This document shows, piece after piece, positions 11,463 through 38,104 of a DNA stretch of 38,104 nucleotides. Both the position numbers and the translations under genes were made by a program. Numbering within the stretch: the stretch's first letter is position 1; each line of letters starts with the position of its first letter. Under the pieces are notes generated by a model that saw nothing but the letters and a program-made list of their open reading frames with translations, made no database searches and was not told the DNA's origin. Source of the DNA: Gracilaria domingensis. Taxonomy: Eukaryota > Rhodophyta > Florideophyceae > Gracilariales > Gracilariaceae. The stretch is taken from positions 1 to 38,104 of the forward strand of contig VCMS01000257.1 of NCBI GenBank assembly GCA_022539475.1, read 5' to 3'.

Positions 11463-11514
11463 AAGGGTATTGAGATATATACGACACTTTTATTACTAAG
11501 ATCTCATATCCAAG

Positions 11515-14563: not shown

Positions 14564-14599
14564 AGATAGTAGCATAAATTTATTGTTTATTACATTGTT

Positions 14600-16307: not shown

Positions 16308-16333
16308 GAGTTGCGATTTACATCGCAACTCGG
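16308..16333. repeat. Perfect short hairpin, left copy
   Basis: GAGTTGCGAT, a 4-base loop TTAC, then ATCGCAACTC. It marks the outer side of the segment that I read as LTR/leader-like and recurs at the mirrored site in the right arm (about 18134-18159). Confidence 0.6.
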
Positions 16334-17866: not shown

Positions 17867-18159
17867 TCGTCTGAGTTCTGCAAAGTGGAATATAGTCTGT
17901 TCGCTTTGGAAACTAAGCTAGTTTTGGGGCAATTTTGGGCGTGCGAGGGGGTAGCAGAGGCTGGCACTCAAAAAATTAAGAAATTTTGGAATATTAAATT
18001 CCATTTCGCGCAGTTTGGTTCTTGGGTCCCCTAGTTTTTGTAGAGGTTCTACTTCGCCGCACCGCCCCATCCACTCTTTTCCGCGACCCTCTCTTAAGTC
18101 TGCGCTTGTGCTAGTTTGCGTTTCCATTTTCGCCCGAGTTGCGATGTAAATCGCAACTC
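17867..18159. mobile_element. LTR/leader-like segment next to the gag spacer, right side
   Basis: Mirror of 16308-16601. It lies directly upstream of the gag-like frame in that frame's orientation. The sequence at the junction, around GATTGGGTAACAGACC on the minus strand, loosely resembles a tRNA primer-binding site after an LTR ending TTTGCA, but the match is weak. Confidence 0.35.
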
Positions 18160-18334
18160 ATCCCACCTCAATCATCCCATCACTTCTTCCCAGTCCACAC
18201 CAACCCTGCTATTTACCCATTTCTCGCCCATCACGCGTTCGCATCCTCTCTCTCCGTCTCCGCAAACGTCATTTTGTAGAAGTCAGGTGGAAAACCCTCC
18301 CCCTTCTCGTATACCCGCCTCGCCCAAAACGGCT

Positions 18335-19264: not shown

Positions 19265-19481
19265 CTTCAGAAGAACAAGTAGTAGTTGGATCGAAGTTGC
19301 CGCTGCGATACAGTGCAATCGAGCTAAACTGTGCTGTCCACCCCCACTGTCCAACCACACGGGCTATATGCAGCACCATGATTCTCACTGTTTCCCTCAT
19401 CCATTTCCCGCCAAAACATTTACTGTACACCTTCGCACCTTCCACTATTTGAGCGCCACCTCTCTGTCTCCTCTTTCGCGC

Positions 19482-19867
19482 TCACATAATCCCCACCCAC
19501 CTCGCCTCGACCGGCGATATTTTTCTCTTCCACCATAACCCCACTCGATGGTTATAGCAAGCCAGGAAGATATTGCCAGTGGAGGCAAGCTAGGGACTAG
19601 TGATTGTACTTAGAGTTGCTCACCCTCTGTCTCGACTGGGGCCATGTTCTTCTTCCGTCACATCCTTTGTGGGTTGTGACAAAAAAAGAATATGTCACCA
19701 CTCGACACCGGATGGGTAACAATGATAGCACGTAGAGTAGTTCATCCTCCCTCCCAGCGTCCACTGGGGATATATTGATGTTCTCTCACATCCTTGACCG
19801 GTTGTGATACAAGAGAAATACATCTCCAATGGAGGCGGAGAATATAGTCATGATAACACGTAAAGGT
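19482..19867 (-). repeat. Three tandem ~125-bp units with internal dyad symmetry, right copy
   Basis: Mirror image of 14600-14985, with very few changes between arms. The units differ much more from each other than the arms do, so the tandem array is older than the inverted duplication. Confidence 0.6.
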
Positions 19868-19903
19868 AACAATGTAATAAACAATAAATTTATGCTACTA
19901 TCT

Positions 19904-20192
19904 CTAACCAACCTTTCGAAAACCAGCTATGACATGAGCTGGGTTACTCGAGCCAAAGATGGCAGATCCTGCAACTGAAATGTTTGCACCGGCCTTCACT
20001 ACTCCTTTCACAGTACTCAGTCCAATACCACCATCCACCTGTACCAAACCCTGGCTCCACCGTCATCAACAATAACATGTCTACAACTCCTTCCTTCATA
20101 AGTGCTTCTACGACCTTTATAGACGTATTCGGGCGCAACCCAACTCCATCCTTTTAATTATGGCAATCCGAGTGAAGCTATAGAACCCGTTC
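19904..20192 (-). pseudogene. RPE: Ribulose-phosphate 3-epimerase fragment, right copy
   Basis: Mirror of 14275-14563 with the same internal deletion between EPGFG and the DGGIGLSTV loop and the same stop (19904-19906). Identical breakpoints in both arms show that the gene was already broken when the arms were duplicated. Confidence 0.85.
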
Positions 20193-20550
20193 ATGTCATT
20201 TATGAAGCCAAAATGGCTCCTTTCATCCTGTATTCAAGCTCCCCGTAACTCGTACTTTACAACTACTTTACAACTCAGGTTCGAAATCAGTTTCATTCAT
20301 TGTACACTTTCTACTCTTCCACCTACTTTTCATAAAACGTCATCACACTTTGTGGCTTGTCGTCTAATACAAGCCCTATCATTCATTCAGTACAATCCCA
20401 TATCATACATTTCGCTCACTTTCACAAAGTGAACCATGTTCCCGTTCTGCGCTTCCCAACCGTTTGTACTTAAGTATCACTCTTTACCCCAGCAGTTCTC
20501 CGCTCCATCTTCCATTTTTATCGTCACACAAAAACAATCGAACACTTGCA
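20193..20550. other. Upstream region of the right reductase-like gene
   Basis: Mirror of 13917-14274. AT-rich leader; nothing further recognised. Confidence 0.35.
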
Positions 20551-21453
20551 ATGAACTCCCAGTCCGACATGCCTCCGACTCCGCCTCCGAGTCCCAGATA
20601 CTCCGACGTCCCTCAGGCCTCATCTCCCACCCGAAAGACTCGGTCCGTTATTGTTGGAAGGGGACGTATAGGTACCATGCTGGCGAACAAAGAAGATACG
20701 GTCATTTCCGCACACGAATTCTGCAGCATGGCTGCTACCTCTCATCTTTCTGATGTACCGATACTAGTTTGTGGAAGAACGAGCACCCTGGAGACCGTAA
20801 TTCAGGCTTGCCCTTATTCGCTCAGTGAGAATCTCGTTTTCTTCCAGAATGGAGACATCATACCATTGGTTTCGAAGCTCGGTGTGGACAAATGTTCAAA
20901 AGTTGTCCTATACGTTGGTGTCCCCTCAAGAAACGCAGCTCCGCAGGATGGTGTCACTCCTCAAAGTCCGGATGGTCTCACTGTCGCAACAGGAAAGTGG
21001 GCCTCCAACGTTGCAGACAGGTTTAGGTCTATGGGTCTCACTTGCCGGGTTGTCGACGAAGACACATTTCTCGTAAGCTATTTTGAGAAGCTCGTGTGGC
21101 TATCAGCGTTCAACATCGTCGGGGCCTCAAGAGGTTTCATTCCTATGGACGTAGTCGCTACAGAGTGCAGTACGGTTGTGCTCACAATAATGAAAGAGCT
21201 GTTGAAGATAGTTTCGCTTAAGACAGGTATTACTTTCAACCTGGAAGAGACCGTTGGGCGACTTCTTGCATATGGAAAAACTCTCGTTGGCTTCCCTACT
21301 TCTTTCTCCGACTTTCAGTTTAGGAACGCGTACTTCTACGACTTTTCCCGCCAAGAAGGAAACATTGTAGGCAGTGACCCCGCTCCTTTTCATACAAACT
21401 ACGTCAACGTTGTTAAGGAAAAGTTATCCCCCTCCCCATTCCCCCAGCTTTGA
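20551..21453 (+). CDS. Ketopantoate reductase-like (ApbA/PanE) Rossmann protein, right copy
   Basis: Mirror of 13014-13916, 300 residues from the ATG at 20551. GRGRIGTMLA, FFQNGDI and the Lys-Trp-Asn helix FEKLVWLSAFN are unchanged. Differences from the left copy are a handful of substitutions in the N-terminal half (for example KTRS/KTRA, ANKE/ANEE, GRTS/GRKS and SLSEN/SLREN), and the C-terminal half is identical by eye. Two intact copies with no frameshift, in a region full of broken genes, suggest that this protein is either useful or young in its broken-gene clock. Confidence 0.68.
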   Translation: MNSQSDMPPTPPPSPRYSDVPQASSPTRKTRSVIVGRGRIGTMLANKEDTVISAHEFCSMAATSHLSDVPILVCGRTSTLETVIQACPYSLSENLVFFQNGDIIPLVSKLGVDKCSKVVLYVGVPSRNAAPQDGVTPQSPDGLTVATGKWASNVADRFRSMGLTCRVVDEDTFLVSYFEKLVWLSAFNIVGASRGFIPMDVVATECSTVVLTIMKELLKIVSLKTGITFNLEETVGRLLAYGKTLVGFPTSFSDFQFRNAYFYDFSRQEGNIVGSDPAPFHTNYVNVVKEKLSPSPFPQL

Positions 21454-22079
21454 GGTCAGAACACATGACTTTTCGGTGTTGTAAACCTTTTAGAGATAGT
21501 TAAACATAAAAGTTACTTTATCGAAATGACCTGTTCCTATTACATTACTTATATTGTTCGTCCTTCTGTGGTTCAAATATGCCCCTTTAAATTCTACATC
21601 TGTTATCACTAATACCTCGCTAAGTTTTTGCTCGATGGAAAAGGGTCATTCCACATCATTAAAGTGCACGATACTATTAACAAAACAAGTACAAAATTGT
21701 GATATTTCTGAAGAACTAAGCCTTTGCAATACTTGGGTCACCCGTATAAAGTAAAGTAAACCTTTTATGGGTTTCAACCCTTAATGGAGGTTGTTTTACT
21801 CTTCTTGATTTCTAAGCTCATGTTGAAGATATTCATAGTTTTCTTTACCCACTTGAACCCGTACATATAATTTATGACTAAATCATCCTTTCTTTACTGC
21901 AAATCGATGCAAAAGCTTCTCGTCGTAGTAACGTTTTAAAACAGTACTACAATACCCGTATATGGTCGTTCTTATACTATTTTTATACTACGAAACACCT
22001 TGTGAACATCAATCACATCCTTCTCATTCGTATACCCACACCCATTTGCAAAACGAACCCTTTCAAAAGCTTTCAAAAC
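21454..22079. other. Intergenic between reductase-like and HAD genes, right copy
   Basis: Mirror of 12388-13013. AT-rich, with both genes on the plus strand here. No RNA gene or clear regulatory element is seen. Confidence 0.4.
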
Positions 22080-22952
22080 ATGTATAACTCAGAAGTTAGA
22101 GCCCAAGAAGTAACTCCTCAGCAGCTGGCTAACGAAATATTCGAAAATGGCTACGCCGTGATTAGTGATATTGACGGTACTCTGAAAAGAGCTGGGGTGA
22201 ACATTCCTGCCGAAACAGTCAAATGCATGAAGTACATCAACGCACGCGTTGGTTTCGGAATTGCTACTGGGCGAGATATAGAGGATGCCGAGAGTTTCAT
22301 GGAGCACCTGGGTGGCTACACTTTTGGCATCTCTGGAAACCAAGGCGCACGGGTGAGATTATCCAATGGTACCGAAATTGATCAGGACCTTGACAGGGAA
22401 GGCTACGAAAGATGTGCAGCCGATCTTGAGAGACTTGTACTCTCCTTGAATGAATCGCACGGACTTCACGAAGAGCGTCAACAAGCAGTTGTGAGCACTA
22501 GAAAAGACAGTGGACTCCCTAACTTCACGTACAATGGACTGTCGAAGTGGAAAACAGAAGTTAACTCCGGTATTTCAAAAGTGTTGACATCCTTTCCGAA
22601 CCTCGTTGCGTACCCTCAAGATGAAAACTGTGACATAGGGGACATTCGTTTCACGAAAAATAGTGGGGCGCTAGCGTTGGTTGAAAACGACCCGCAGTTC
22701 GACACACATTTAATGGTTGCTTTCGGGAATGCTTCCAATGATGGCCCTCTATATGAAATGGCAACCCTGGCAGTTCATGTGAAGGGAGAAGACCATCCAG
22801 CAGCGGTAACATATCTTGTTGATGGCGTGGAGGACGTGCATGAGACCATCAGAAGGGTGGCAGAACTGTACGGGTACAGAAAATGCAAGTGTCAAAGGTT
22901 TAGAAATGCTCTTGGAATTTGTTTCAAGTGCTACGATGCCCTTAATACTTAG
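22080..22952 (+). CDS. HAD superfamily phosphatase (type IIB, trehalose-phosphatase-like), right copy
   Basis: Mirror of 11515-12387, 290 residues from the ATG at 22080. All catalytic motifs are kept (DIDGTL, ATGR and GNASNDGPL; here one Asp of the left copy's GNASDDG is Asn). The Cys-rich tail ends CYDALNT instead of CYDACNT, so it has one Cys fewer. The Asp-to-Asn change lies in the Mg2+-binding motif IV and could weaken activity, while the remaining Asp of the pair is intact. It converges on its pseudoenzyme neighbour at 23005. Confidence 0.8.
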   Translation: MYNSEVRAQEVTPQQLANEIFENGYAVISDIDGTLKRAGVNIPAETVKCMKYINARVGFGIATGRDIEDAESFMEHLGGYTFGISGNQGARVRLSNGTEIDQDLDREGYERCAADLERLVLSLNESHGLHEERQQAVVSTRKDSGLPNFTYNGLSKWKTEVNSGISKVLTSFPNLVAYPQDENCDIGDIRFTKNSGALALVENDPQFDTHLMVAFGNASNDGPLYEMATLAVHVKGEDHPAAVTYLVDGVEDVHETIRRVAELYGYRKCKCQRFRNALGICFKCYDALNT

Positions 22953-23004
22953 CTAGGATATGAGATCTTAGTAATAAAAGTGTCGTATATATCTCAATAC
23001 CCTT

Positions 23005-23844
23005 TTATGATTCATGGTTGTTTTTATCGTGCTGCTTTTTCTCGTAGCCGTACAACAGAGCCACCAGCATAATTGTCGAATGTACATCCTCTACGCTTTC
23101 GAACAGGTTGTGTACTCCACCCGGGATACAATCTTCTTTGACGTGAACGCCGTACACGCCTACCTCATGCAAAGGCCCGTCGCTCAAAGCACTTCCGAAC
23201 GTCACGACGTCATCCGTATCAATAAATCTCGGTTCATTATCCACAAGATTTTCTCCTCCGCTTCCTTTTGTGTATCGCTTGTCCACAATTTCGCAACTTT
23301 TATCGCCGGGATAGATAACAAACGCATCCATCTTCTGCAACAGGTCCCCAATAGCAGAATCCACTTCTTCTTTCCACTGCCACAGTGTGTTGTACACGAA
23401 ATTGGGAAGGCCACTATCACTTCTGGTCTCCACGAACCCCTTCTCATCATCATTTACAATACCATGCCTCCTATTCAAATCCCTTGCCAGGAACAGTAGT
23501 CCGTCAACAGTGTGGTCAAGGGTGTGATCATTGAATGCAGCCTTAATTTCCCTCTCGTCAGAGAAACGCATGAAAGCTCCATGATTCGCCGAGACACCAA
23601 ACTTATAGTCTCCGAGTCCTTCCATTTTCCCCTCCACGTCGCCCACATCACCCCCTGTGACAAGTCCGAAACCAACACGTTCGTCAATAAACTTCATACA
23701 CTTCACAACTTCTTCTGGAATTGACTCTCCTTCTCTTCTCAACGTTCCATCAACGGAACTTTATATACCGTAACCATTGGCATATATGAACTTAGACAAG
23801 GTATTGGGTGAAATTTCCGCCAGGTCTCTCTGTTCCTCTGCCAT
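23005..23844 (-). pseudogene. HAD-like pseudoenzyme gene, right copy, nonsense mutation
   Basis: Mirror of 10623-11462. At 23761-23763 the Leu codon TTA of the left copy (position 28) is TAA, just before the degenerate motif I. The rest (23742-23005) stays open, so a product could only arise from a downstream start without the first strand. This is a single substitution relative to the left arm. Confidence 0.8.
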
Positions 23845-23964
23845 TTTTCCTGATACAGTCACCATACTGCCACAAGTACCGCATAGACAGGAACTGTATA
23901 GATTTCTCAGTTTCATACTTCTCTTAAAATCAACCTTAAGTGCAGTTTCAGAAATGTTAGGACG

Positions 23965-26475
23965 CTACATGTTCAATTGCGAATTGACTGGTGCCACCAA
24001 TGATGTTAACGATACCAAACATTTGGCATCTTTCTCGACGGTGACAACCCGTGGAACTGTCACAGAAAGAAGCTCATTGTCATCCACAAATGCAGAACTG
24101 CCTGCGTTCTCTGCATTCGCTCCCTCTCCCAATGCCACGAACTGAACCTTCATCGACTTTCCTCTCAGCACATGTTCATTTAGTTGAGACATCAGGTCAT
24201 CCGGTGTCATGCTGTTCAGAGTAGATCTCATCTGTTGTGTGAAAGTCTTTCTCTGTTTCTTCCTCGGCGGAGCCCGCTGTTCTTCTTCAGAGCTATCCAG
24301 AACTTCTATGGCACCTCGATTTCGGCCGTGCTCAATTTCCCTATAACTCACCTGCGCCCGTTCTCGTGCACTTCTTCGCGGCTCCCCTTCTTCACTGGCA
24401 GATGTTGCAGCAGCAGCAGCGGGAGTCCTTCTCTTCGTCACAGACTGCTTCACTGGTGCGGGGGGCGGAATTACCTTGAGCATCGTCCGCAATCGATTCT
24501 GAACGGAAGTAGTGGCAGTTCTAATTGAGTTTGTCCTGCTCCGAACACGCGGCAATGTGTTGAAGTTCACAACTTGTCCGAAAAGGAACTGATTCACAGC
24601 TGCGATGTTGTCTGGGTCTTCAACGTCATCTTCATGCGATGGAGCAGAAAGACTGACTCCGCGTTTCAGGAACACTTCCATCGACTCTTCCTCGTTCAGT
24701 TCATTCCTCACTGCTCGAGCCGCGCGGAACAGAGACACTGCTCTATCATAAAAGAAACCTCGAACCTCCTCAAAGCTTTTCCATTGCTTTGTCTTCGTCG
24801 ACTTGCCCTTCAATAGAAACATCTGAAGACAATCAAGAATGAAGGAAAACTCCTCGGCATCCAAAACATATAGCGGCGTATGGGACAGATGTGTGAGACC
24901 TATGTCACTCACAGTCTCACATATTTCCTCGAAATGGGCCAGCATTCCCTCACGAGACATGAGTTGCAGGGCGACATTGGCATATCTCAGATACTGACGC
25001 TCTTGCACAGTCCCAATCAGTTGGCTCTCCTTCAACACTTCTGTCACTTCTGCAGGATCCACGTCTGCCGGCGTCACCCCCTCAACATCTTCATTTAGAA
25101 TGGCGACCACATTAACTATAGAGTGTATCTTGTCTGCAAACATCATCCTTCGCATGGTACTCGTCGACTCATTGAGGTACGAAGCAACACATAACAATTC
25201 CTTCATCCCAATGGGCCTCCCATCTCTTCGTATCAGCAGATTGCAACGCCAAAACTTGGCTAATCGCTTCCACTTCTGTGCACCAGTCGCTGCCAAATAT
25301 TGTAAAGCTTTCAGACGATGCCAACCATCTACAATGAAGCACTTCTTCGTTAGGCGTCCCTTGTCAGCATCCCTCTCTCCCGTAGTAGCATCTTGTAAGG
25401 CCACCACTGGAGAACCCATGGACTGCAATATCCCCCGCTCCTCCATACTCTTCACAAGGGCTTCAACGTGGCGTTTACTTACTCCACGGAGTAAATTGGG
25501 CGGAGTGTCCACCAGAGTGATTTCAACAGTAACAAAAACCATCCGGTACTGATTGAGGTTCACCTTTGGTACCTTCTGACGAATTCGTCTGTACGTCTTG
25601 CTCCGAGTAGGTGTCCCTTGTGTTCCAGAACGCTCGCCAGAAACACTTGAACGTGCCATTCTTGGGGACAGAAGCACAACGTCATCGTGCTGCTGCTCCG
25701 CAGTTTCTGGTGCAGTTTGGGGTACAGATGGACCAGCTCCTTGTGCGGATTGCGCATCCGCGTCTGGAAGGGGACCTTTCATGATCTCATCTTCCTCCTC
25801 TTGCACAGCCGTCCCCTGCTGAACCGTCTGTTTCGACGCAGAAGATCCCCTTGTGTCGACGATCTGATTCATCGCAGGAGATGCCCTTTTCGATGCAGTG
25901 GGCTTCGTAGCGGAGGTAGACTTTGTTTGACCTGTCCGCTTCGTAACTGGGGATGCTCTCTTCTCCATAGACCGCTTCGTAACAGACGACGGACCTGCCC
26001 GCGGAGGTGCTACTGATGCGCTACCTCTCGGTGTTGATGAACTTCGAATTGGCTCCGTGCGGCTTGTCGGCGTCATCACCTCACTCATAGCGCTCACCGT
26101 TCCTCGCTTGGACGCCGGAATGCTGGCTGCCACCGGTTCCATCATTTTCTCATCCCAAGGAGCGGCCGTCCGGAGATCCTGGATATATTGTGGAAGATCC
26201 AGGCCCTCCGCCCGGTAAGGGTAGAACGTCTGACCGCTTCGACTGATGAGAATATTATGAACCACCACAAGACCTGGGTCCAATTGCTTCCCGTGCAACT
26301 CGCGGCGTAGAACACTTCCAATTCCATGCAACAACGCTTCCCCGACTATCACCTTTCCTTCATTCTCAATATCCATCTGCAGAGAAACCCGCATTCCACC
26401 TTGCAATAATCGAGTGCTCCGCCGAGTGCGAGGAGTCACGCTTTGCGTACGCTTTCGAACACGAGTTGGCTTCAT
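23965..26475 (-). CDS. ParB-like domain protein, right copy, dioxygenase half deleted
   Basis: 836 codons from the ATG at 26475, with no frameshift. The N-terminus is Arg-rich (KPTRVRKRTQSVTPRTRRS). A Ser/Thr/Lys-rich linker with ASP-x-x-KR repeats covers about residues 120-215. A ParB/Srx-like domain spans about residues 313-420, with the typical loop VDGWHRLKAL (383-392) preceded by SKRHVEALVKSMEERG. A helical region and a basic linker with RKKQRK follow. The left copy continues into a 2-oxoglutarate dioxygenase domain, but here a 1,621-bp deletion between two ATGC tetramers (left-arm 8817 and 10438; right-arm junction 24026-24029) removes it and adds about 20 unrelated codons to the stop at 23965. 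In ParB-fold proteins this domain binds or cuts DNA or hydrolyses nucleotides; here DNA targeting is an inference. Confidence 0.8.
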   Translation of the reverse strand: MKPTRVRKRTQSVTPRTRRSTRLLQGGMRVSLQMDIENEGKVIVGEALLHGIGSVLRRELHGKQLDPGLVVVHNILISRSGQTFYPYRAEGLDLPQYIQDLRTAAPWDEKMMEPVAASIPASKRGTVSAMSEVMTPTSRTEPIRSSSTPRGSASVAPPRAGPSSVTKRSMEKRASPVTKRTGQTKSTSATKPTASKRASPAMNQIVDTRGSSASKQTVQQGTAVQEEEDEIMKGPLPDADAQSAQGAGPSVPQTAPETAEQQHDDVVLLSPRMARSSVSGERSGTQGTPTRSKTYRRIRQKVPKVNLNQYRMVFVTVEITLVDTPPNLLRGVSKRHVEALVKSMEERGILQSMGSPVVALQDATTGERDADKGRLTKKCFIVDGWHRLKALQYLAATGAQKWKRLAKFWRCNLLIRRDGRPIGMKELLCVASYLNESTSTMRRMMFADKIHSIVNVVAILNEDVEGVTPADVDPAEVTEVLKESQLIGTVQERQYLRYANVALQLMSREGMLAHFEEICETVSDIGLTHLSHTPLYVLDAEEFSFILDCLQMFLLKGKSTKTKQWKSFEEVRGFFYDRAVSLFRAARAVRNELNEEESMEVFLKRGVSLSAPSHEDDVEDPDNIAAVNQFLFGQVVNFNTLPRVRSRTNSIRTATTSVQNRLRTMLKVIPPPAPVKQSVTKRRTPAAAAATSASEEGEPRRSARERAQVSYREIEHGRNRGAIEVLDSSEEEQRAPPRKKQRKTFTQQMRSTLNSMTPDDLMSQLNEHVLRGKSMKVQFVALGEGANAENAGSSAFVDDNELLSVTVPRVVTVEKDAKCLVSLTSLVAPVNSQLNM

Positions 26476-27422
26476 GTTGAACCGCTATTGCAGTGAACGG
26501 TGTATATCAACAATACGCTCGCTCTGGAGAATACAAGAACGGATGCGAGCCTTTTAAATGGCGACTTACGCTGGGCACCCCCGCTTTCGGCAGCTCCTCC
26601 CAGCGCACTGCCAGTCTCGTCCGTGTCCTGTCCGTGGCCGCTCGCACGCTGATTGCACGCTTTAGAGTCGTGGAGTTCGCGCAATGATGACTCACGCGAG
26701 CAATGATCGCGCTGTCTAATCGTGATCTTCAAATGCTTTGCATAGTAGTCAAGAGTACACTCATTCACTTCCATGTACAGCCTACTGCCGCAAATACACG
26801 TGGACAGCGGCGCCAACATACCGGCGGCCGGGTGTAGCGAAATCACTACGGGGCGGTGTGTTTTGGGAGGTCCCGGGAAGGCGCCGGAATGTGGCCAGAA
26901 CGTGCCCGCGGGCGGGGGGGGTCGGTCGTGTTAGGGTAGGTACCCTAACACGACCGGACCCCCCCACCCGCGGGCATAAAAACGCACATTTTTCAAAAAA
27001 TCGCCCAAAACGTGCCCGCAGGCGGGGGGGATGGGGGGTCGGTCGTGTTAGGGTACCTACCCTAACACGACCGACCCCCCCCTCGCCCGCGGGCACGTTC
27101 TGGCCACATTCTGGCACCCTCCGGAGACCTCCCAAACCACTCCTCCCGGCTCTTCCGGCAGTGATTTCGCTGCACACGCCGTGCACATATATCAAACTAG
27201 AGAAAACTAGCGCTTCGCACCCACTTGATCCGCGACGTTTAGCGCAATACGCGACCTTTGCAATAGCTCCGAATCGCGACGTGGCCGACACGCGACGCTA
27301 TCGCACCGAGCGGACACGGACACGGACGAGACTGGCAGTGCGCTGGGAGGAGCTGCCGAAAGCGGGGGTGCCCAGCGTAAGTCGCCATTTAAAGGCTCGC
27401 ATCCGTTGTTTGCGCTGAAGCG
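26476..27422. promoter_or_regulatory. Palindromic divergent promoter region, right copy
   Basis: Between the start codons of the ParB-domain gene (minus) and the methyltransferase-SET gene (plus). The outer parts are mirror images: the block with GCCATTTAAA and GGCTCGCATCCG occurs at 26543-26565 (minus) and about 27383-27406 (plus), giving both genes a TATA-like box. Further in, the sequences AGCGAAATCACT and GGCCAGAACGTGCCCGC are also mirrored. The centre has two G/C-rich palindromes (about 26897-26976 and 27008-27110), each with TTAGGGTA and TACCCTAA about a 2-base axis. The axis is GG in the first and CC in the second. A short AT-rich spacer (ATAAAAACGCAC and on) separates them. Confidence 0.75.
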
Positions 27423-30400
27423 ATGGATTCCACCGATGTTGGAGAGGAGATACATCCTATCGACATGAGTGCTCCGCCTCCGGCGTTCCATGCATATGTC
27501 AGACTTTTCTTGGTTCTTCGCGATGCTTTGGCAAACAGCGATGGAGGCCATGATCGGCCACGGGACGTGGGGTTTAGAGGGTTAATAGAGTTCTGCGCCG
27601 AGAACTATAAGACTATTCCGGAGGCAAGGAAGATGTTTGAGGAGGCCACTAACTCCAAGAACCTCCAGAACTTGACACTGCAACAACTGCGAAAGAGTGT
27701 TGTGAATAACAAACCTGTGGAACAACGATATCTTGTAACGAAGCTTCTTGACAAGAAGGACGGGGATGAGGACCAGAGACTGCGCGATTTTTTCCTTCTC
27801 TCTATGGATATGGGTATATACCTACCGGTGCGATGCCTGGTTGGTTATTTCATGACCAGAAGAAAGCAGGTTCTGAAGACGACAGTGTTCATCCCACCAA
27901 CAGCTGTGAACCCATTTGAGTTCGTTATATACTTATCATACCTCGGCCACATAATGGGAGAGAACGACAACATCCGAATGATGAAGAAGAAACAACCGAA
28001 AAAGAAACGAAAAGTGAACCATGCACCATCTGTGTACATACCCACTTTTACGTCGTTCTCCAAAGACAACTGTGATCGACTGGGATTCGCTATCAGTGAG
28101 GTCGTATGGGCATGGAGTTGTTTTGCGGCTCATCTTGGATACACGAACGTTCAGCATACCGTGAAACCATACATTTACATGAATATGCAGACGTTGAAGT
28201 ATACAGCGCTAGAGACACGGGAGTCTGGTTATGCTCCGCCGAGCCAAAGTACTCGATTCAACACACAGGATGTGCCACAGAACAGTACTAGTGGATCGGT
28301 GGAGACCTTGAGTGATGAATGCGATACAAACCTGCGAATACTGGCTAAGGAATTTTTGACAGACCTCGAAACCGTATGCACCCACGATAGCCTCTATAGC
28401 TTACGGGCTGATCAGATGAGGAACTGGATAGAGTTTTCGGAGATACGGATGAATACCGTATCTGGTTCTGACTCCGGTGAGTTGCCTGCTCGATTTCAGA
28501 AGTTTTCGGAGTCGCTATGGAAACCGATACAGGATATGCGTCATGCGGCAGGGTTCCATGTCGGCATTTACGCGAAACCTGATATTGAACTGACGAAAAC
28601 CCCTAAAACTTCCGGTAATGCCGAACCTTCTTCGACCAAGTCTGCCCCACCCCCACCTCGTCGAGAGTATATGAACCTCGTGAGCTCCGATAGCGACGAC
28701 TTCGAGAAGGCAGTGAATCTTGCGGAGCATGAATCTCGGGTTGCCGGTTACAACATCCAAAAGACTGGTATTGAGCCGCCCATGAAGGGGATATCCAGTC
28801 TCCTTCGAATGAATATGGACAAGGTGTGGAAGGGGATGAGAAAGTCATACTTTGTAGCGTACAACTGTGACATGAAGGACCTGAGGCACACACACGAAAC
28901 GTTTGTGAATCAGAGTGAGATTTTATGGGGTGAGACAGAGCTTGTCCTAACAGACCCTCCCTTTAACACTCGAAGGAAGAGGAACAAACGAAATAGTGCT
29001 CACGATGTCTTCAGTGAGGATGACATGATCCGTACGGCTGACTTAATAAGTTCCGCCCTTCGGTCAGGTGGGCACTTCATTATATTCTGTGCCATGGCAC
29101 AGTTTCATGTGTGGCACAGGATACTTTCGGAAACGGCGAGTACGAAAGATGAAGCTGGAAGCGAAGGTAAACCAGAACTCATGCCTTCGTTTAAAGTGGA
29201 TGCGAATCCACTGGTGTTCATCAGGGATCGAAGTAATGTTGGAGGGAATCCACGGAAGTTTGGGATACAGCCCGTAACGGAGTACGCCGTTCATGGAGTG
29301 AAGCGTGGATTGCGACCATCGGAGGAAGCCAGTCTTACTCCATTTGAGGAGAACAATTTCATTCCTTCTACTTTCCCGGCTAACAGGAATGTAATTGACC
29401 GGGTGCCAAAACCGAGAGCCGGGGAGTGGTTGACATGGAAGGCACATGAGCCAGGTAGTTCAGTACCAGGTGGGCAGTACATAAGACCAGAGCAGAAGTC
29501 GAGGGAGTTGATGAAAGAGTTGATATGTCGCTTCACAAGACCGGGTGATCTTGTCATGGACATCTTCGCGGGAACTTTTTCTACGGGTATGGCGTGCCTA
29601 TCGCTGACAAAGCATAGGAAGTTCTTGGGGTGCGAGAAGAATAGGCCATGTTTCAGCCATGCCAAGCACCATGTCACGACTCTTATGGCCGAAGTTATTC
29701 GCGGGGGGAAGAATGACATCCTGGTTGAACAGGAGGTGGTGGATGCGGCTTCAACGACTTATGAACGGGTTCCACATCGGGACCGAGGTCGGCTTGAATG
29801 GGAGGCTCCATTTGGTTACCCCCAGTACCAAGTGATGCCTGGACATATTACTCAGTTCCTAGGAAGATACTGGAAGGACTGGGACTTTGTCGACAAGTGT
29901 GGACAGCATACTGTAGATCTTTGGGAGGAGAAGTACCGAGGAGCTCTGAATCTAATGGATATGCATATGCTGTTGACTGTTGAAGCCAATCGCTATCGCT
30001 TACATGTAGCATCTTCTAAGATTCGACATCCCCGTGCTGGTATGGGGGTGTTCACGGAACATAAGATATTGGCTGGGGAAACAATCTGTCATTTTTATGG
30101 AACTTTGGTATACACGGATCTGACGAACCGGAAGGAAAGACACTTAACGTATGGAAGTGGCTGTCTCGGAGCAACTCCAGTGCGGTACAAGTTGTTTTCT
30201 ATGATGGTCACTGTGACTGGTACGGAGTTTCTGCACCTGAGGAACAGACCAGGACAGGCTCAGGATAGAAAGGAGAGCGAAGTCTACATTGTCCCGGCGC
30301 CTTTTTGTATCGGGGGCTACATCAACGACGCCGGATATCATGCTGGGGATCCCGATTTATCGGAGCCCCGGTCAAACAGGACTCGAAGTGGCAATGTGCA

Positions 30401-30560
30401 GGTGGTGGAAGCGAAGTCCGTGATACAGTTTAAGTCAGACCTTTCTAACTATGCTCTACTTCGTTGTAGAGCAGTAAGAGATATTGAGAGGGGCGAAGAG
30501 TTGTATTTCAACTACGGAGAGCAGTACGCCTGGGACTGGGCTCTGACATTGGAGCAATAG
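27423..30560 (+). CDS. DNA amino-methyltransferase (beta class) fused to SET domain
   Basis: Intact, 1,045 codons. Residues 1-480 match no family I know; they include the nuclear signal KKKQPKKKRKV (188-198) and a Ser/Pro-rich linker (about 395-430). The methyltransferase spans about 480-755: catalytic motif IV DPPF (511-514) comes first and the SAM-binding motif I, DLVMDIFAGTFSTG (709-722), comes after it, preceded by EQKSRELMKELICRF. This order is that of beta-class N6-adenine/N4-cytosine methyltransferases. The SET domain covers about 870-1032: GMGVFTEHKILAGETI, then YINDAGYH where NHSC is usual, then RDIERGEELYFNYGEQY with the catalytic-type Tyr and GEEL. SET domains normally methylate protein lysines. 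The variant IND motif leaves activity open. A TATA-like box lies only about 30 bases before this ATG, so Met15 (27465) may be the true start. The left copy is dead. Confidence 0.88.
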   Translation: MDSTDVGEEIHPIDMSAPPPAFHAYVRLFLVLRDALANSDGGHDRPRDVGFRGLIEFCAENYKTIPEARKMFEEATNSKNLQNLTLQQLRKSVVNNKPVEQRYLVTKLLDKKDGDEDQRLRDFFLLSMDMGIYLPVRCLVGYFMTRRKQVLKTTVFIPPTAVNPFEFVIYLSYLGHIMGENDNIRMMKKKQPKKKRKVNHAPSVYIPTFTSFSKDNCDRLGFAISEVVWAWSCFAAHLGYTNVQHTVKPYIYMNMQTLKYTALETRESGYAPPSQSTRFNTQDVPQNSTSGSVETLSDECDTNLRILAKEFLTDLETVCTHDSLYSLRADQMRNWIEFSEIRMNTVSGSDSGELPARFQKFSESLWKPIQDMRHAAGFHVGIYAKPDIELTKTPKTSGNAEPSSTKSAPPPPRREYMNLVSSDSDDFEKAVNLAEHESRVAGYNIQKTGIEPPMKGISSLLRMNMDKVWKGMRKSYFVAYNCDMKDLRHTHETFVNQSEILWGETELVLTDPPFNTRRKRNKRNSAHDVFSEDDMIRTADLISSALRSGGHFIIFCAMAQFHVWHRILSETASTKDEAGSEGKPELMPSFKVDANPLVFIRDRSNVGGNPRKFGIQPVTEYAVHGVKRGLRPSEEASLTPFEENNFIPSTFPANRNVIDRVPKPRAGEWLTWKAHEPGSSVPGGQYIRPEQKSRELMKELICRFTRPGDLVMDIFAGTFSTGMACLSLTKHRKFLGCEKNRPCFSHAKHHVTTLMAEVIRGGKNDILVEQEVVDAASTTYERVPHRDRGRLEWEAPFGYPQYQVMPGHITQFLGRYWKDWDFVDKCGQHTVDLWEEKYRGALNLMDMHMLLTVEANRYRLHVASSKIRHPRAGMGVFTEHKILAGETICHFYGTLVYTDLTNRKERHLTYGSGCLGATPVRYKLFSMMVTVTGTEFLHLRNRPGQAQDRKESEVYIVPAPFCIGGYINDAGYHAGDPDLSEPRSNRTRSGNVQVVEAKSVIQFKSDLSNYALLRCRAVRDIERGEELYFNYGEQYAWDWALTLEQ

Positions 30561-30793
30561 ATGAGTTCAGTACCGAATAGAAAGTAAATATGCTTGTGAA
30601 TGTTGCAGCTGCCTGCAATACGCGTTGTTGTACATGTACACTGGAGCTCTTCATCTGTAACGGCGATATTTGCGACCCATTGGGCACCTCAAATTCCTAA
30701 AAAGCAGGAACTGCGGAGTCTCCCGGAATATCTGAACCATGCACCCCCCCCCCCCCAACAATTTCGTTCCTTCACCCCGTTTATCTCCACAAC
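30561..30793. other. Short intergenic with poly-C tract
   Basis: This stretch links two plus-strand genes. A run of C residues near 30743-30756 differs in length and pattern from the left arm, as expected for a slippage-prone tract. No other feature is seen. Confidence 0.5.
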
Positions 30794-33188
30794 ATGGGTA
30801 TAACGCCGAGAAAGCGAAATAGTACGCAGCGGAACAAGAGTGGACAGAAGAAGAGAAGAGCATCGGATGATACGAATCAGGCTACAAGCACCGCACTTCC
30901 TAAACGGAAGTCGTCCTCGACGAAGGAGAGAGTCAGTGGGCGTCCTTCTACAGGACTCTCTCGCCCATCTCGCAGCGGAGCGTCTTCCGGGATTGCGTCA
31001 AGAATTCGTGGATCAGCGAACGATGTCGTGCCGTCAACTGCCGATAATGCAAATCGTGCATCTGTCTCTGCTCCTCAAGAAATGAGGTAACTCGGCCCAG
31101 CGGGTCAGGACAGGAGGGCATGACAACTGGAACTGAAGAGGTTCGTATGACACCAAAACCTTCATGTCCCCGGCCGATATCGAAGACCGGAGCTACTGGG
31201 GCGCGGGTTACGCCACCCAGTGGATCTGGACAACAAGGGAAATGACGAGAAGTCGTGAGAGCCCTAGTATATTAAGATCGTCACGTCCATCCCTGTCTTC
31301 TAGAACTGGGGCCGCTATGAATCGTATCATGCCTCGCAATGGGTGCGGACAAGGGAGAAAGACAATAAGAAATCGAGAGACAACTGATAGACGAGTTACT
31401 CATCAACCTTCCCCTCTTTCCAGAACGGGGGCCGTTGCAGCTCGTACGAGGCCCAATTCATCTGGTATACCATGCCATGGAGGAGGACAGACACGGGAGT
31501 TGCAGCTCGGAGCCCGTGCCAAGGGTGGACACAGACCGCCTGCAGCCTCTCGTGTCTAAGGGTATGGCACATGAGGATAGTTCCGATAACGAAATAACAC
31601 CGAATCCTGCGGCATTACCGGAGCCTGTCGCCGAAGAGGCTAGGGAAATACCGAAAGATATCCATACTGGTGTGAAATCAACCTCTATGAACAGACGTGA
31701 TCTTTTAAATGAACTGAATTGCTTGAAATAAAAGGTTAAGACGCTACAAGAGGACTTGATGGTTCGGGGAATTCTAGTGAAGGTCGCCCAAGAGCAGAGT
31801 ACGGCTTTGAAAAAGAGGCTTGAAGAGAAGGATCTAGTCATTGAAGGGCTAAGAGGGGCACTGAAACAGGAGGGAGATAGGAGTACACGTGCTCGTGAAC
31901 CTGGGCAGACAGGTCGAAAGAAGCATAAAATTGAGGTGTGCGACGAGTTTCGAGGGGTTGCTCGAGCAGTGTATCACAACATGCTGACGTGGGCAAGGAG
32001 AGAAACAAGTGAGCTATGGCTCGAAGGTGAGTCGCTCACCCGAAACTGAGGTAACCGTGCCGAGAAGGTGGAAGACGCAACTGAGAGTGGGGAAGGGCTT
32101 ATTGAGCCGGAGGAAGGTGGTTCATACATGGTTCCTAAAAACCCCGTGGAGCTCTTGGGCAGTTTTGGCATGTTCACACCGTCGGTAGAGGGGGGCCAGA
32201 TGCTTTGCTGAAGAAAATGGTTGAAAGCGAGTTGAAGGAGTTGAGCTGGGAAGGTATTAGAAAAGCATCTCTTACCGACAGGTGTATACTGGAACTTTGT
32301 GCAGATATGTGCCTTAGGCAGAGAATGCGGCAGACCATGAGTGACGTCGTGGGCGTTCGTAAGAGAAATTCGAGGGATAAACTATTTCTGCTCCTGGGGT
32401 ACGATCTGATTTGGAGAAGAACAAAGCTGGTAGAAGAGAATGCTGACGAACTCACAATGCAGTTGAAGGAAGCGCAGGAGAACATACTGCGTCTTGACGA
32501 AAATGGTGTACCGAACACTTCATGGTGGAGAAAAGCCCCATTTGTTCGTCTAAAGTACTCCAATACGGACAATGTCGAGGATATGCCGACGGAAGATCAA
32601 GACTTGTTCTTCCGAAACCGTGTCGGGGTACAAGTGCTGAAGGAGTTTATTGGGTATGATGTGGAAGACAAGGATACGGGCACCTTTTTAGATGGCACAA
32701 TACTGTTGCTCGCACGTTTGGACGCTTGGGTGTTGACGGTTGTGAGCCTTCTAAGTACGGATGTGTCAAGGGGTGGCCAGAGACAGAAACTGTTTACAAA
32801 GAAGTTTGCAGAACTGCTACCTCTGTGTTTAAAGAATGTTCTGGGGGATGTTAGGCAACGTCTCTTGAGGACCAATTCCAGCGAGTTTCATAATTTTGGA
32901 ACGACAACGGAAGATTGGACTAAGGTTCTTGGTAATGACATGAGAGAGGCTACATTTGGATATCGAATGCCGTCGAACGGAAGACTTTACCTCACTGTGA
33001 AAGAACAATTTTTTATTGACAGTGTGAGCCGAAGATTGGGGTCTATTAGCGATTGTTTCGTTGGTGAATGCGAGGAAGGGGATATGGAGTTCAAGGAAAT
33101 GGACATGAACGATTTCGGAAGTAACACAGGATCACAAGAAAAGGCACCACAAGGTGAACATGTAGAGGATGGAGCCCTTAATGTTTAA
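30794..33188 (+). pseudogene. Basic repeat-containing coiled-coil protein, right copy, broken
   Basis: Starts at the ATG at 30794 (MGITPRKRNSTQRNK), with basic clusters such as GQKKRRAS. Degenerate repeats of roughly 35-40 residues with SRTGA and SGSGQ follow. Next come a coiled coil (around NELNCLK to LEEKDLVIEGLRGALKQ) and a folded-looking C-terminal part, open from 32205 to the stop at 33186-33188. Compared with the left arm there is a one-base loss near 31080, another near 31245, and a GAA-to-TAA change near 31729, so it cannot be read through. The C-terminal 327 codons (LFLLLGYDLIWRRTKLVEEN and onward) are clean and could form a separate product. It overlaps the end of the transposase gene by 11 bases, tail to tail. 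No family recognised. Confidence 0.62.
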
Positions 33189-36100
33189 GGCTGTACAAGG
33201 TCAACGTGCTCAGTTGGTCCTTCATCTGAATCATGATAGAATCGATTGATGTAGAATCGGTGTTGAAACCATTGAAGTGGAGGACAAAAGGTGGAGCAGG
33301 GTAGTTTGATCGGACAACATGGACAGTTCCCTGTAGTGCAGAAGCCGGAACCATCCCGTACCAAGGAGTTAACTCTACGATAGTCTTCGCTTTGGAATGA
33401 CGAGGGAACGGAAGAGTGTGGTTCTTTTCATCGTTTGTAGCCCATCGTAAAGATATGCATTTCAATATGTGGTCGATGTTTGTTGCGGGGGGTAAAACCT
33501 CGAAATACCGGACGAATGCCACCTCTGGTGCGGTAAATGCAGAATCAAGGAGAGATATTCGAATCAGAGCGACTACCTGGGCAACCCAAGTCTCTGAATC
33601 TTCTCCGCTTACCAATACAGTGGAAAACTTTGGCTTTCTACTGGGACCAAATGCTGGAGAAGCGAAGACACGTTGGATGATGGGGTATTTGGGTCGTCCC
33701 AGCTTAAGTGCCTTAGAAGACGAATCGAAGTGTTCAAGAGTCGGAACGAAACCGCCTTTCACGAGGACCGAATTCACCAGAGTTATCCTTGTCTTTTCTG
33801 GGAAGTATGTAATAGAGTGCTCATCCAGTGTTTCTTTCACGAGACTGAGGAAAGGAGGAAGGGCCTGTTCACCAATTTGATCAAGAATCGACCTTGTGTC
33901 CGTACTTGAGAACATTTCTCTAACAGCAGTCCATGTTTTTGAACTGGACATACTTGAAACACAATGTTGAAGAGCTCGTAAAGTGAAAGAACGCCCTCTC
34001 ATTGCAAACCGAGGAAGCTGTGTGGAAGTTCCTGGTAAACCAGGATTACGCTGGTAAGGAGTATTGCCATTCCATTGCTTTCTAACATTTCCGTGCTCAA
34101 TGGAGCGAATAGTCTCCTCCACAGCCGTTGCTGTTCTTCTGGACGTCTTTTTGTAGTGTCTTTTAAATAGCAGGTGTGCATGTTCGTATATGCCTGCGTC
34201 GTAGTACTTGATACTTCCCAGACGGCGAATATCGTCCACGAGATGATCGAGAAGATGAAACTTCAGAGTTCCCAGTCTGGAGGGATGAAAATCCGCCAGA
34301 GTCTTTGTTGCGGAACGCTTGAAGGCTTCAATCTCCGAACTAAGACACAGGAGAGAGCTTTCAGTCCAATACGGGTCACGATTGTATCTGAATAAGGTCG
34401 AAAGCAAGTCCGAGTACTGAGAGAAAACGGTTGTGATTGGGGCAACGTCCTGTTCTCCACAGCATATGTCAAAGAATGCTCCTATGAAGGGAAAGACCAT
34501 GTCAAGTGCTTTGTATTTTTTGGCCTTCAGCATTCCACGGAGACCGTCTTTCGTGAAGATACCATTCAAAGATTTGCCTTTCTCCTGCGTGGAGAAATCG
34601 ATATGTAATCCTTTGGCAGGAGAATCGCGTTCTATGGCAGCTAGAATTGCGTTTGCATGGTTGAAGAGTTGGGTGCGTATCGTTCGAAATGAACGCGATG
34701 CAGATGTTCCTATTGTGGTGCACAGGGTGTCTGACTGCAGTCTCTCGATTGTGGCCGTTTTTATCAACTTTGAGATGCCGAGATGCAAGTTGTGTAATGG
34801 TTCGAATGAGAACAGACTGTATGGAGACAATCCCGGGATCATTCCAAGGCTTACGGAAGTTTCGAGGAACGAAGGAATGAGAGATATGGAATTTGAACGC
34901 ATCAGAGTATCCGCTTGAGATCTACTCTCCCTCGCACGACGGGACGTCTTTCCGCCTCGTCTTTTCGTGCATGTTGCAAGATAGCTGTGTATGTCTTTCG
35001 GATGCTTTTCGTGTGCTTTTGAGAACGTCCGTTGAATGAGGTGGGAATAGGACTGCATAAAGATGAGCGAGGGGCTTTGCATCTATGACACGGGCTTTCC
35101 GTTTTGGTGCCATGAAGAATAGACAGAATGTCCTTAGCCTCAGGAATATCCGCACAATAACTTGCAAGCAGAGGATGGCACACTCGACTTAGTTTGTCTT
35201 CGCCGATGAACTGAAAACCTTTCTGCGTGAGATTTAGAATGGGCTCCAGGACTTGACGAAGAGATTCTTGAAGGATTTGCATCCTGGACTCGCGTAGAGA
35301 CTTGCTAGAAACAAATGGCATTGCGTCTGCTTCAGATGCGGAAACCTCGATCAGTGTGGTAGGGAAGTATGCCACTACTGTGAGGTCATCACGGATACAC
35401 TTACGGCGAAGCTGGTCGGAGAAGTTGAGAAATATGAGGTGAAGAGGATAGGCGGTAACCGATATTTGCTTTAGAGTTGTTGAAGACTTATCGGTGTATA
35501 CCTGCAGAAGACCTACGAAAGATTCACTGTAACTTATTTCTTGGGAGTACCACACTATTCTACTATCCAAAGAGCCCATGACCATTTCCTTAAGTTTTGA
35601 GGTGGCGTCTCTTGCGAGAGAGCCGGACATGGGGTGAGATATTTTCGTGGAGTGGGTCTGAGGTATAGGGTGAAAGAATGTGTTTTCGTTGTTAGCCAAC
35701 TGGAGCTGTTTCACAAGTGTCTGAACGGGGTCTCTCGTGTAGAGGGTGGCGCTGAACTTACATCCTTCTGGCGAGACAGTTCTGCGATTGAACCCGTCCT
35801 TTGAGGCGTATCGTTCGAAAATGGCGTTCTTCAGTTCTGTACAGCGCTTGGAACTTGTTATGGTCTCGTTGAATCGCTTTTGCGAGAATCGCGGGTCCCA
35901 AAGTAGCCCAATTAGCTCGTCCGCCTCACGATGACCAAGGTTGGAAGCTACTGAAGCCAGACAAACCGTGAGATAATCCATATGCAAATCACCGAAGGCC
36001 TCCTCAGAAGGCACTGGGCGGGAACTGCTTCCGTGTTCTCGCTGTAATGACGCGGGACCCGGGGAAGGAGAAACACAATGCGAAGTGTCCGGAATGGGAG

Positions 36101-36362
36101 GGGCGCACGGAGTGGGGTCGACGATGTCCTCGGACACTGGAGGCTCGGGAAGGCGACAAGGGGCAGTGACCGTTTCGGAAGATGCGGGCGCGGGTGCGGA
36201 AAGCTTGAGACGCTTGCTTCTCCGAATGGGCCGGCTATTGTCGTCTTCCAGCGCTGCTTTCAGACGAAACGGGCAATGGTTGACATGCTGTTGAAGGGAT
36301 AAGACTCCTCGGCGAGTAACGAAGGGGCACCCACGCTTCTTATGTGTACAGTAGTACACCAT
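33178..36362 (-). pseudogene. Plavaka-like (CACTA-type) transposase with one frameshift
   Basis: I take the ATG at 36362 (MVYYCTHKK), the first ATG of the long frame. An N-terminal C2HC-type finger follows (CTHKKRGCPF, then LQQHVNHCPF). The first frame continues to 34902 with the transposase core pattern DKSSTTLKQISVTAYPLHLI, LRRKCIRDDL and CHPLLASYCADIPEA, then CHRCKAPRS. The second frame (open 35082-33178) carries LFSFEPLHNLHLGISKLI, GTLKFHLLDHLVDDIRRLG and a YYDAGIYEHAHLLFKR segment. These match, in order, the landmarks of Plavaka-type DDE transposases (nuclear cut-and-paste enzymes) as I know them. The two frames overlap, and the change of frame falls at about 34925-35000. It is either a real mutation, making a dead transposase, or a sequencing error; no slippery site is evident. 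Confidence 0.78.
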
Positions 36363-36772
36363 GGGAAGAACAAATGACTGAGAAACTACGACAAAGACTG
36401 CAAGGGAAGGGCGTCCGAAGGGAGAAGGAGGTCGAGCGACAGTCAATATCGACGTCTTGCTCAGAACGGAGAATATATTTTGAGTTTAAATCACGTGCTT
36501 TCGTTCAAAAAGGAACGTAGGTGCACGTCGACCTCAACACAAGGGTGTACTTCTCGTACTATCTACCACTGGTAATAAACCTGTGGTTCCCCAACGTTGT
36601 ACGCTGTACACTTGTCCAATCTCGCACAGAAAAAAAATCTCTTCCGTCCGCCGCCGCCGCCCCCGTCCAACGTCCGACCTTCTGTTACCGTCGTGATCCG
36701 TGCCATCCTCGCGTTCTACTCCGCTCCGTCGTACTTTTTTCCGCCCTCGCACTCGCTACGAAGTAGCGTGCT
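36363..36772. other. Upstream region of the transposase
   Basis: Contains a TTTAAATCACGTG sequence near 36484 and a pyrimidine-rich CCGCCGCCGCCGCCC tract near 36649, but no gene that I can support. Short frames on both strands look random. Confidence 0.35.
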
Positions 36773-36853
36773 GAGAAAGAGAATGAAGTACGCTTCATCT
36801 CTGCTTAATGGATTCCATTAAGCGGACATGAAGCGTACCTCATTCTCTTTCTC
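36773..36853. repeat. 81-bp imperfect palindrome (hairpin)
   Basis: Arms of 39 bases at 36773-36811 and 36815-36853 around the apex ATT, with about four mismatches. The arms begin GAGAAAGAGAATGAAGTACG. The sequence beside it repeats parts of one arm (CATAAAGCGGACAT at about 36871) and has another small hairpin (CATCCGT...ACGGATG). It sits about 400 bases upstream of the transposase start, where subterminal or terminal repeats of the element would be expected. That role is inference. Confidence 0.7.
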
Positions 36854-37111
36854 CGCCCTCGTCGGACGCCTCCATAAAGCGGACATCATCCGTATCTCAC
36901 GGATGTATTCCGTGCAGTTTTTTTGTACGTTCTCTTCAATACTCTTCTTTGTATCTTTTCTCTAAGCTAACCCATCGTCACCACGTTTTTTCGCGCTATG
37001 CGACATGTAAACGGCAGAAAATAAGCTTTGGGTTACCGGGTTCCCGTTTTCAACCTCCAGCTCGTTCTATTTGTTCAACTACGTTCTGCTTACGATATGT
37101 TCCATCTTGTT

Positions 37112-38037
37112 CTACGTCTTGCTACTCACATTGACTTGATTGAAGGTAACCACTCTTTGACGTGCGTCCTTTGTATTTCTTCCGACGTCCACAACGACTG
37201 TAAGTATGCGACCAGTTTCATTTCGTCTCTCAAGATCGATCTCTGACTGCTCGTGTAACCTATCACGCTGTATTGCCGATCTTGGTTCACTGTCTTGCGC
37301 CATAGGCGTCTCTAGCGTCTCGCATCTTGCGCTACTCTTGGTTTGTTGGCGATCTTGGTTCCGCCATAGACTCTTCTCTCTTCTCGCGTCTTGCGCTGCT
37401 TTTCGTGTATTGGCGATATTGGTTGATATTGGTTGACTGGCTTGGGCGATACGTTCATCATTGGCGATCTTGGTTGACAAGGTTGCGCCATAGGATGGTC
37501 TCTCTCTTCTCGCGTCTTGCGTTACTTTTGGTGCATTGGCGATATGGTTTGACTTGGTTGCCTCATAGGCTCGCATCTCTTCTCGCGTCTTACGTTGATC
37601 TTCTTGTATTGGCGATCTTGGTTGACTGGCTTGCGGGATAGGCGATTCTGGTACTTGGTTGCGACATAGGCTGCTCTCTCGTTCATCGCATCTTGCCGTA
37701 TGTTTGCTGCATGGGCATTCTTGGTGTCGTTGCTTGTGAGTTCTCGCTCCCGGACCTTTCGCGTTTTACCATGAATGGATTGCTGGTAATCTAACCGATT
37801 CTTTTTCCTTCTTCTTCTTCCTTTTGCGGTTACTAAGTTCCTCAAATTTTCTAGCGCAACGTTTCTGTTTTGCTTTATCAATGGTACGTTCCATCGCATT
37901 TCAAATGTATCGCAACGGATCATTTGACTAACTTTGGATACTTTCTGCTTGGCGTAACCAGGTAAATGACTTTTGATGCGGACGTAGCTCAACGAGTTGG
38001 CAGGTGGAAGGTTTCTCAAAGTAGGGTAACCATGCAT
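37112..38037 (-). CDS. Lys/Arg-rich repeat protein in two overlapping frames
   Basis: Frame one runs from the ATG at 38037 (MHGYPTLRNLPPANSL) for 171 codons to 37522 and has a basic cluster KGRRRRKKNR. Frame two (37576-37112) continues with repeats of the type IAN-x-x-K-x-x-QDARREKS. Because the DNA under the second half is a tandem repeat, the switch of frames may reflect an indel within the repeats. The first half (KQKVSKVSQMIRCDTFEMRW) looks like ordinary coding sequence. No family is recognised. It could be a host gene or belong to another repeat element, so the call is weak. Confidence 0.4.
37268..37735. repeat. Minisatellite with ~50-76 bp diverged units
   Basis: The phrase TTGGCGATCTTGGTT or close variants recurs at about 37273, 37347, 37410, 37461, 37537 and 37609, with weaker relatives at 37640 and 37711. 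CTCTTCTCGCGTCTTGCG occurs between them. Spacings are about 73, 63, 51, 76 and 72 bases. Confidence 0.75.
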
Positions 38038-38067
38038 CTGGGCATGGATTCCCTACATGGGACCGGA

Positions 38068-38095
38068 GAGGATGAGGCGCTTCGGCCTCATCCTC
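38068..38095. repeat. Perfect 11-bp-arm hairpin
   Basis: GAGGATGAGGC, loop GCTTCG, then GCCTCATCCTC, about 30 bases upstream of the start of the basic repeat protein. Function unknown. Confidence 0.55.
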
Positions 38096-38104
38096 GTGGA
38101 GTGC

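Follow-up and report, generated by a model that had tools for sequence, protein, structure and literature searches.

We analyzed a 38,104-nt stretch of the genome of the red alga Gracilaria domingensis (contig VCMS01000257.1 of assembly GCA_022539475.1, hereafter the window) and describe a gene in it whose product joins a DNA amino-methyltransferase (MTase) to a SET domain. Sequence comparison and structure modeling show that a single conserved protein contains both a predicted beta-class MTase and a SET domain, and that its gene lies inside a repeated element, tail to tail with a transposase gene. This architecture and its mobile setting we regard as almost certain. We hypothesize that the gene specifies a putative bifunctional methyltransferase of a giant (~22.5 kb) Plavaka-type red-algal DNA transposon, which keeps the element expressible, and give this reading about an even chance. 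That both domains are catalytic is somewhat probable, and an anti-silencing role is a more tentative proposal.

The gene (27423..30560, + strand) is a single exon running from ATG to stop and encoding 1,045 aa, as proposed by an earlier inspection of the letters alone (hereafter the sequence-only reading). That reading had also named DPPF and FAGTFSTG motifs in beta-class order, a SET domain in the same protein and a nuclear signal of the simian virus 40 (SV40) type, and had suggested profile hidden Markov model (HMM) searches and structure prediction as checks. In the HMM search, both domains scored above the curated Pfam cut-offs: N6_N4_Mtase (PF01555) at residues 506-743 (28938..29651, +; E 4.4e-15, 56.7 bits versus a cut-off of 26.7) and SET (PF00856) at residues 873-1032 (30039..30518, +; E 3.4e-7, 31.1 bits versus 22.4). 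No chromodomain was matched in the fusion protein by Pfam up to E 1.

Within the MTase domain, DPPF lies at residues 511-514 (28953-28964), RPEQK at 688-692 and FAGTFSTG at 715-722 (29565-29588). Motif IV (DPPF) precedes motif I (FAGTFSTG), which is the beta-class order, and the two motifs were therefore correctly read. The best PHROGs match of the fusion protein is to phage DNA methyltransferases (phrog_67, E 1.9e-22), and its sequence matches in the PDB are bacterial beta-class enzymes, for example 5hek (M1.HpyAVI), CcrM and MboIIA. Structure prediction matched both folds. By structure comparison the MTase part (~residues 470-760) has the beta-class fold. For the SET fold, the PDB rows listed were MTase folds throughout, but Foldseek also matched SET proteins of named viruses, with E values from 2.8e-5 to 9.5e-4 and target TM-scores of 0.34-0.61, in a table that omits the aligned residues. 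A profile of the fusion family reaches EZH2, SETD8/KMT5A, KMT2C and the PBCV-1 SET protein through its SET end (E 4e-5 to 1e-2). The proposed SET domain thus held up by profile and by fold but not in its NHxC motif, which is replaced by YINDAGY in the window protein; Tyr1031 lies in EELYFNY.

To place the protein in a family, we used residues 470-1045 as the query against 5.8 billion proteins. Among 6,610 candidates, 31 proteins were homologous at a threshold of E <= 1e-3, including one each with the source names Chondrus crispus and Pyropia vietnamensis, both red algae. A first search of the 5.8 billion proteins, with words from the first 500 residues only, returned nothing useful, and neither did a search of P0001 against plasmids, viral contigs and GTDB genomes. 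Precomputed Pfam labels assign both domains to 22/31 homologues and the MTase label alone to the other 9. We then built an alignment of 32 proteins (A2) from the window protein, 29 of these homologues and representatives of two other fusion lineages in the same genome; P0031 (45% query coverage) and P0032, neither with a Pfam SET match, were excluded from A2 and A4. At E <= 0.01, N6_N4_Mtase was detected in all 32 proteins and SET in 31. The SET residues G873 (30/32), G875 (31), G893 (32), E1026 (32) and Tyr1031 (31) are kept, the last being the catalytic tyrosine of the ELxxDY type.

The N-terminal region (residues 1-470; 27423..28832, +) is mostly helical and alignable along the fusion family, and a Pfam scan of it gave nothing above chance. 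It contains PKKKRKV at residues 192-198 (27996..28016, +), which we take to be the letters of the SV40 nuclear signal. The signal named by the sequence-only reading is therefore present in the window protein, but the exact string is not common to the wider family, where basic clusters vary in place: a run of at least four K/R occurs within the first 520 residues of 24/32 aligned proteins, at varying positions.

The genome itself holds at least four fusion lineages, each with both domains in one protein: that of the window, L029 (45% identity), L017-L019 (28%) and L050 (32% over 1,056 columns). The MTase tree pairs L050 with P0003 and L029 with P0002 (support 99 each), so that the lineages appear either to predate the species or to have been exchanged. 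The SET tree again joins L029 to P0002 (100) and places P0003 elsewhere with weak support (63). The two trees have 9 of 30 bipartitions in common, far above the values for shuffled tips (mean 0.15, maximum 2), suggesting that the MTase and SET halves have by and large been inherited together.

We searched the genome (77.9 Mb, 680 contigs) for further copies. At least 150 SET matches were scored; 8 of those listed stand out by much higher scores and resemble host genes. Of the 150 MTase matches listed, 76 are followed by a SET match no more than 1.5 kb away, with 387 nt the commonest distance (36 cases); the match edges keep the frame in 49 of these 76 pairs. In other contigs the same SET match sits in frames at least 1,050 aa long, and 31 of 72 tblastn rows obtained with the L029 protein span the MTase into SET without a stop. 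We rejected the possibility of two genes run together based on these long frames, the stop-free rows and the homologues with the same fusion. A host gene was likewise rejected, as different contigs carry the gene within one and the same repeat, whose termini are fixed.

To assess selection, we compared the window copy with 17 of 28 loci examined, leaving out frames shorter than 800 aa or without a match, as well as L032, which is the same place as L021. All 18 copies carry DPPF, F(A/V)GTFSTG, YINDAGY and EELYF(N/D)Y. The pooled pairwise ratio of nonsynonymous to synonymous substitution rates (dN/dS) is 0.43 (N-terminal region 0.51, MTase 0.27, linker 0.43, SET 0.44), with all bootstrap ranges below 1 and those of MTase and SET overlapping. 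Stops, rather than replacements, are what the choice of long frames directly disfavors, though this choice may lower the values somewhat. The shared motifs and the dN/dS below 1 in both domains led us to reject a chance open reading frame (ORF). Because transposon copies drift after insertion, we place the constraint on the source copies, with the SET domain included.

The sequence-only reading had mentioned eukaryotic mobile elements as carriers of DNA methyltransferases and SET proteins separately, and the fusion gene lies inside a repeated element. Most of the contig (8-33041) forms one giant inverted repeat, consisting of two head-to-head copies of a 22-kb element. The right-hand copy (17868..38104, +) begins at the left terminus, CGTCTG, extends as far as the contig does and lacks 1.6 kb at 24026/24032; position 24026, considered as the element's left end, was dropped, as it marks only this deletion. 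The left-hand, inverted copy (8..16599, -) is cut by the contig start and carries a second MTase-SET copy with a broken frame (2488..5550, -). Between them, a 1.27-kb spacer (16600-17867) matches 11 other places at 91-96%. A read fold-back is an unlikely origin of this palindrome because the longest aligned arm block, 6,167 bp long and free of gaps, carries 55 substitutions, although gaps take up 5 to 22 positions in the three remaining blocks, and we take the arms to be two element copies head to head around the spacer.

Near the right end of the element lies the Plavaka transposase gene (33178..36446, -), which is split into overlapping ORFs, 34902-36446 with PF18759 (68.2 bits versus a Pfam cut-off of 26.3) and 33178-35082 without a Pfam match. 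Plavaka transposase frames of 1,100 aa are found at other genomic places. The left terminus falls at 16599 in the left arm and 17868 in the right arm, and in at least 28 other places the match ends there, give or take a few bases; it is missing in copy C134. The right terminus lies ~0.5 kb past the contig end, as judged from L045 and from eight loci that share its end string. A complete copy (C99:113290-135813; L048, L049) measures 22,524 bp, with imperfect terminal inverted repeats CGTCTGTGTTCTGCA and CGTCTGTCTCTTGCA (12/15 alike). Of 20 stretches compared around long SET frames, those of L017-L019, another lineage, have no nucleotide match to the window, and the remaining stretches match it beyond the gene, mostly over at least 5 kb and some in rearranged form.

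Other ORFs in the element include HAD-type hydrolases (PF08282) at 10551-11462 (+; E 4.5e-5) and 11515-12465 (-; E 4.6e-12), a further one at 22002-22952 (+), and an ORF at 20464-21453 that by reading resembles a ketopantoate-reductase-type oxidoreductase and had no match in the Pfam scan. These are possibly metabolic cargo of the transposon. In C61, beyond the right end of the element, ORFs at L045:1087-2991 were read as remains of a reverse transcriptase and integrase of the Ty3 type.

Upstream of the fusion gene, a divergent neighbor gene (23965..26475, -) is 3′ truncated in the right-hand copy; its left-arm counterpart (7769..10288, +) retains the 3′ part. The two genes are separated by a mirror-symmetric intergenic region (26476..27422), in which a 76-nt inverted repeat with 100% identity (26553-26628 and 27318-27393) lies beside the start of each gene. 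The region also contains GGTCGTGTTAGGGTA palindromes at 26924-26955 and 27041-27072. This 15-mer occurs at only six places in the window, in the intergenic region and its left-arm copy, where none is expected, and in 15 of 50 loci (among L009-L028) at 3 to 8 places each, the number varying by copy. The symmetric divergent promoter region with its palindromes may couple the fusion gene to the ParB-like/dioxygenase-like neighbor, and the ParB-like protein that the element encodes may bind to the palindromes.

The N-terminal part of the neighbor matches ParB-like phrog_3264 weakly (E 7.4e-4), and a Pfam scan of the protein gave no match. The ParB reading is weakened because ParB_N (PF02195) gave no match in this genome while 10 control genomes were positive. 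The C-terminal part carries the pattern HxD..GSH..GRGDxxHAG..RYH, from which we read it as a possible 2-oxoglutarate-Fe(II) dioxygenase, a candidate by motif only, as no 2-oxoglutarate dioxygenase match was found in Pfam, PHROGs, NCBIfam or a PDB profile search and no fold supports it; the AlphaFold2 model is poor (predicted local distance difference test score 40.7). Among the eight other rows of alignment A3, L019, P0036, P0037, P0038 and P0039 keep the pattern with small variations, P0033 has it changed, and P0034 and P0035 do not have the C-terminal part. The database proteins closest to the neighbor are three from G. domingensis (80, 92 and 97% identity). In the L017-L019 lineage (C382), a 950-aa relative of the neighbor (L019:6941-9793, with pieces at L017:119-2982) adjoins the MTase-SET gene in tandem rather than divergently. 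Homologues P0004 and P0036 agree in their reported number of contigs (4) and in the length of the longest one (20,528), which suggests gene linkage in another species.

We propose that the fusion protein would enter the nucleus, where its MTase domain would methylate an exocyclic amino group in DNA, chiefly the element's own. Adenine N6 may be the more likely target because, by convention, DPPF/Y favors adenine over cytosine; N4-cytosine enzymes mostly carry SPPY, and specificity is not readable from the MTase domain, according to the available text of PMC8885841. The tethered SET domain would methylate a nearby chromatin protein, and the two marks together would hold the element in a transcribable state, which would amount to anti-silencing. 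The sequence-only reading, in which one protein could mark DNA and histone together, is thus supported in part, as to the single protein with its two methyltransferase folds and the conservation of the pairing, whereas N6-methyladenine or N4-methylcytosine as the product and a histone as the SET substrate are candidates.

Several observations weigh against this proposal. The replacement of NHxC in SET extends through the family: NH reads ND in 30/32 aligned proteins (at the H position, D in 30, H in 1 and Q in 1), and we accordingly file the domain as SET, with its predicted lysine methyltransferase activity unproven. The MTase and SET trees contradict each other in one pair of splits, both well supported. 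At least 123 Plavaka transposase matches were found genome-wide; when the 123 listed, which do not include the window's own, are set against the N6_N4_Mtase matches listed, the tail-to-tail arrangement is seen for 31, with the converging MTase match 3-9 kb away (27 at 5.3-5.9 kb; same strand 1, diverging 2). The observed ends of the element start with CG. In the one complete copy the two flanks, GTA and CGG, do not agree with each other if this terminal CG is left aside, and no other duplication of 2-3 bp is present; a target-site duplication at CpG could be what the CG represents. Finally, the evidence does not distinguish anti-silencing from self-silencing.

Self-silencing is unlikely, though not negligible, as an explanation: SET would write a repressive mark and the DNA mark would recruit silencing, so that the element damps its own copy number. 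The high copy number seen for SET, 8 apparent host genes aside, agrees with this, as do bdelloid rotifers, whose transposons carry amino-methylation linked to SETDB1 (available text of PMC8885841), but selection on a transposon gene would favor activity more easily than self-repression. We also think it unlikely that the element carries a self-contained epigenetic kit, in which one protein writes a DNA amino-methyl mark and a chromatin-protein methyl mark and the ParB-like, dioxygenase-like partner, joined to it by the symmetric promoter with its palindromes, reads or removes them, in a host where no C5-methyltransferase was detected; if true, the element would impose its own chromatin code, not based on 5-methylcytosine, on itself and perhaps on the host.

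It is slightly more doubtful that the MTase alone is enzymatic and SET a dead binding module, such as a histone-tail reader or part of a dimer. The ND substitution and the higher dN/dS of SET would fit such a module, but the overlapping bootstrap ranges and the five residues kept in 30-32 of 32 proteins stand against it. Because ND is so consistent, we interpret it as a variant site rather than decay, and SET is the weak point of the bifunctional reading. Improbable, in our view, is a role in transposition control, with the MTase methylating termini or promoter palindromes and thereby timing excision or protecting copies. Dam methylation acts in this way on some bacterial insertion sequences; here a bacterial-type MTase sits inside a DNA transposon, and within the window the palindromes are found nowhere but in the promoter region, in both copies of the element, but the SET domain would be left unexplained and no recognition site is known. 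That assembly or frame error joined two genes is the least credible explanation, since a giant inverted repeat may signal assembly trouble but the long frames elsewhere, the stop-free tblastn rows and the fusion in Chondrus and other-source contigs refute it for the family.

No C5-methyltransferase (PF00145) was found in six frames of this genome, with 10/14 control genomes positive, although an intron-split or gap-borne gene could be missed. The result parallels reports for bdelloid rotifers. PF05063 and PF12851 had no match in this genome or in any control genome, and are hence uninformative. A conserved mobile fusion under selection would physically link DNA marking and protein marking by a genomic parasite, and makes the disputed N6-methyladenine and N4-methylcytosine testable as an enzyme-written eukaryotic mark, in a seaweed genome without a detected C5-methyltransferase.

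As far as we searched the literature, the fused MTase-SET pair on a giant Plavaka element is a new combination. The sequence-only reading knew of no such characterized enzyme, and we found no description of the fusion, although prior mention is possible and the Chondrus crispus relative already carries the name 'adenine specific DNA methyltransferase'. The beta-class N6-adenine MTases CcrM, M.BceJIV and M1.HpyAVI share their fold and motif order with ~residues 470-760 of the fusion, whereas the solved chains of such bacterial enzymes span 188 to 350 residues, without SET or the helical N-terminal region. N4CMT of bdelloid rotifers is a beta-class MTase joined to a chromodomain (available text of PMC8885841). 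It has SPPY, carries a reader and is an allelic host gene, whereas the fusion has DPPF/Y, carries a possible writer and is a high-copy transposon gene.

Among transposons, fungal Plavaka elements with a TET/JBP dioxygenase likewise set a transposase beside a DNA-modifying enzyme, for which anti-silencing has been proposed (available text of PMC12730594). Their ends are TGT..ACA or CATCA..TGATG (PlavakaA/PlavakaB), unlike the CGTCTG..CAGACG ends of our element, with its amino-MTase-SET cargo. Giant Plavaka repeats of Amoebidium occur with tyrosine recombinase genes, and MTase-SET is not mentioned in the accessible portion of PMC11244446. SET genes travel on DNA transposons, as here, in Phytophthora HarbingerS and MuDR (as cited in PMC12730594) and in the oomycete proto-Helentron (PMC4067079), with no DNA methyltransferase mentioned beside them in the parts of these papers available. 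SET-gene transposons and transposons with DNA demethylase-like dioxygenases are known one at a time; the element described here brings a SET domain and a DNA amino-MTase together in a single protein.
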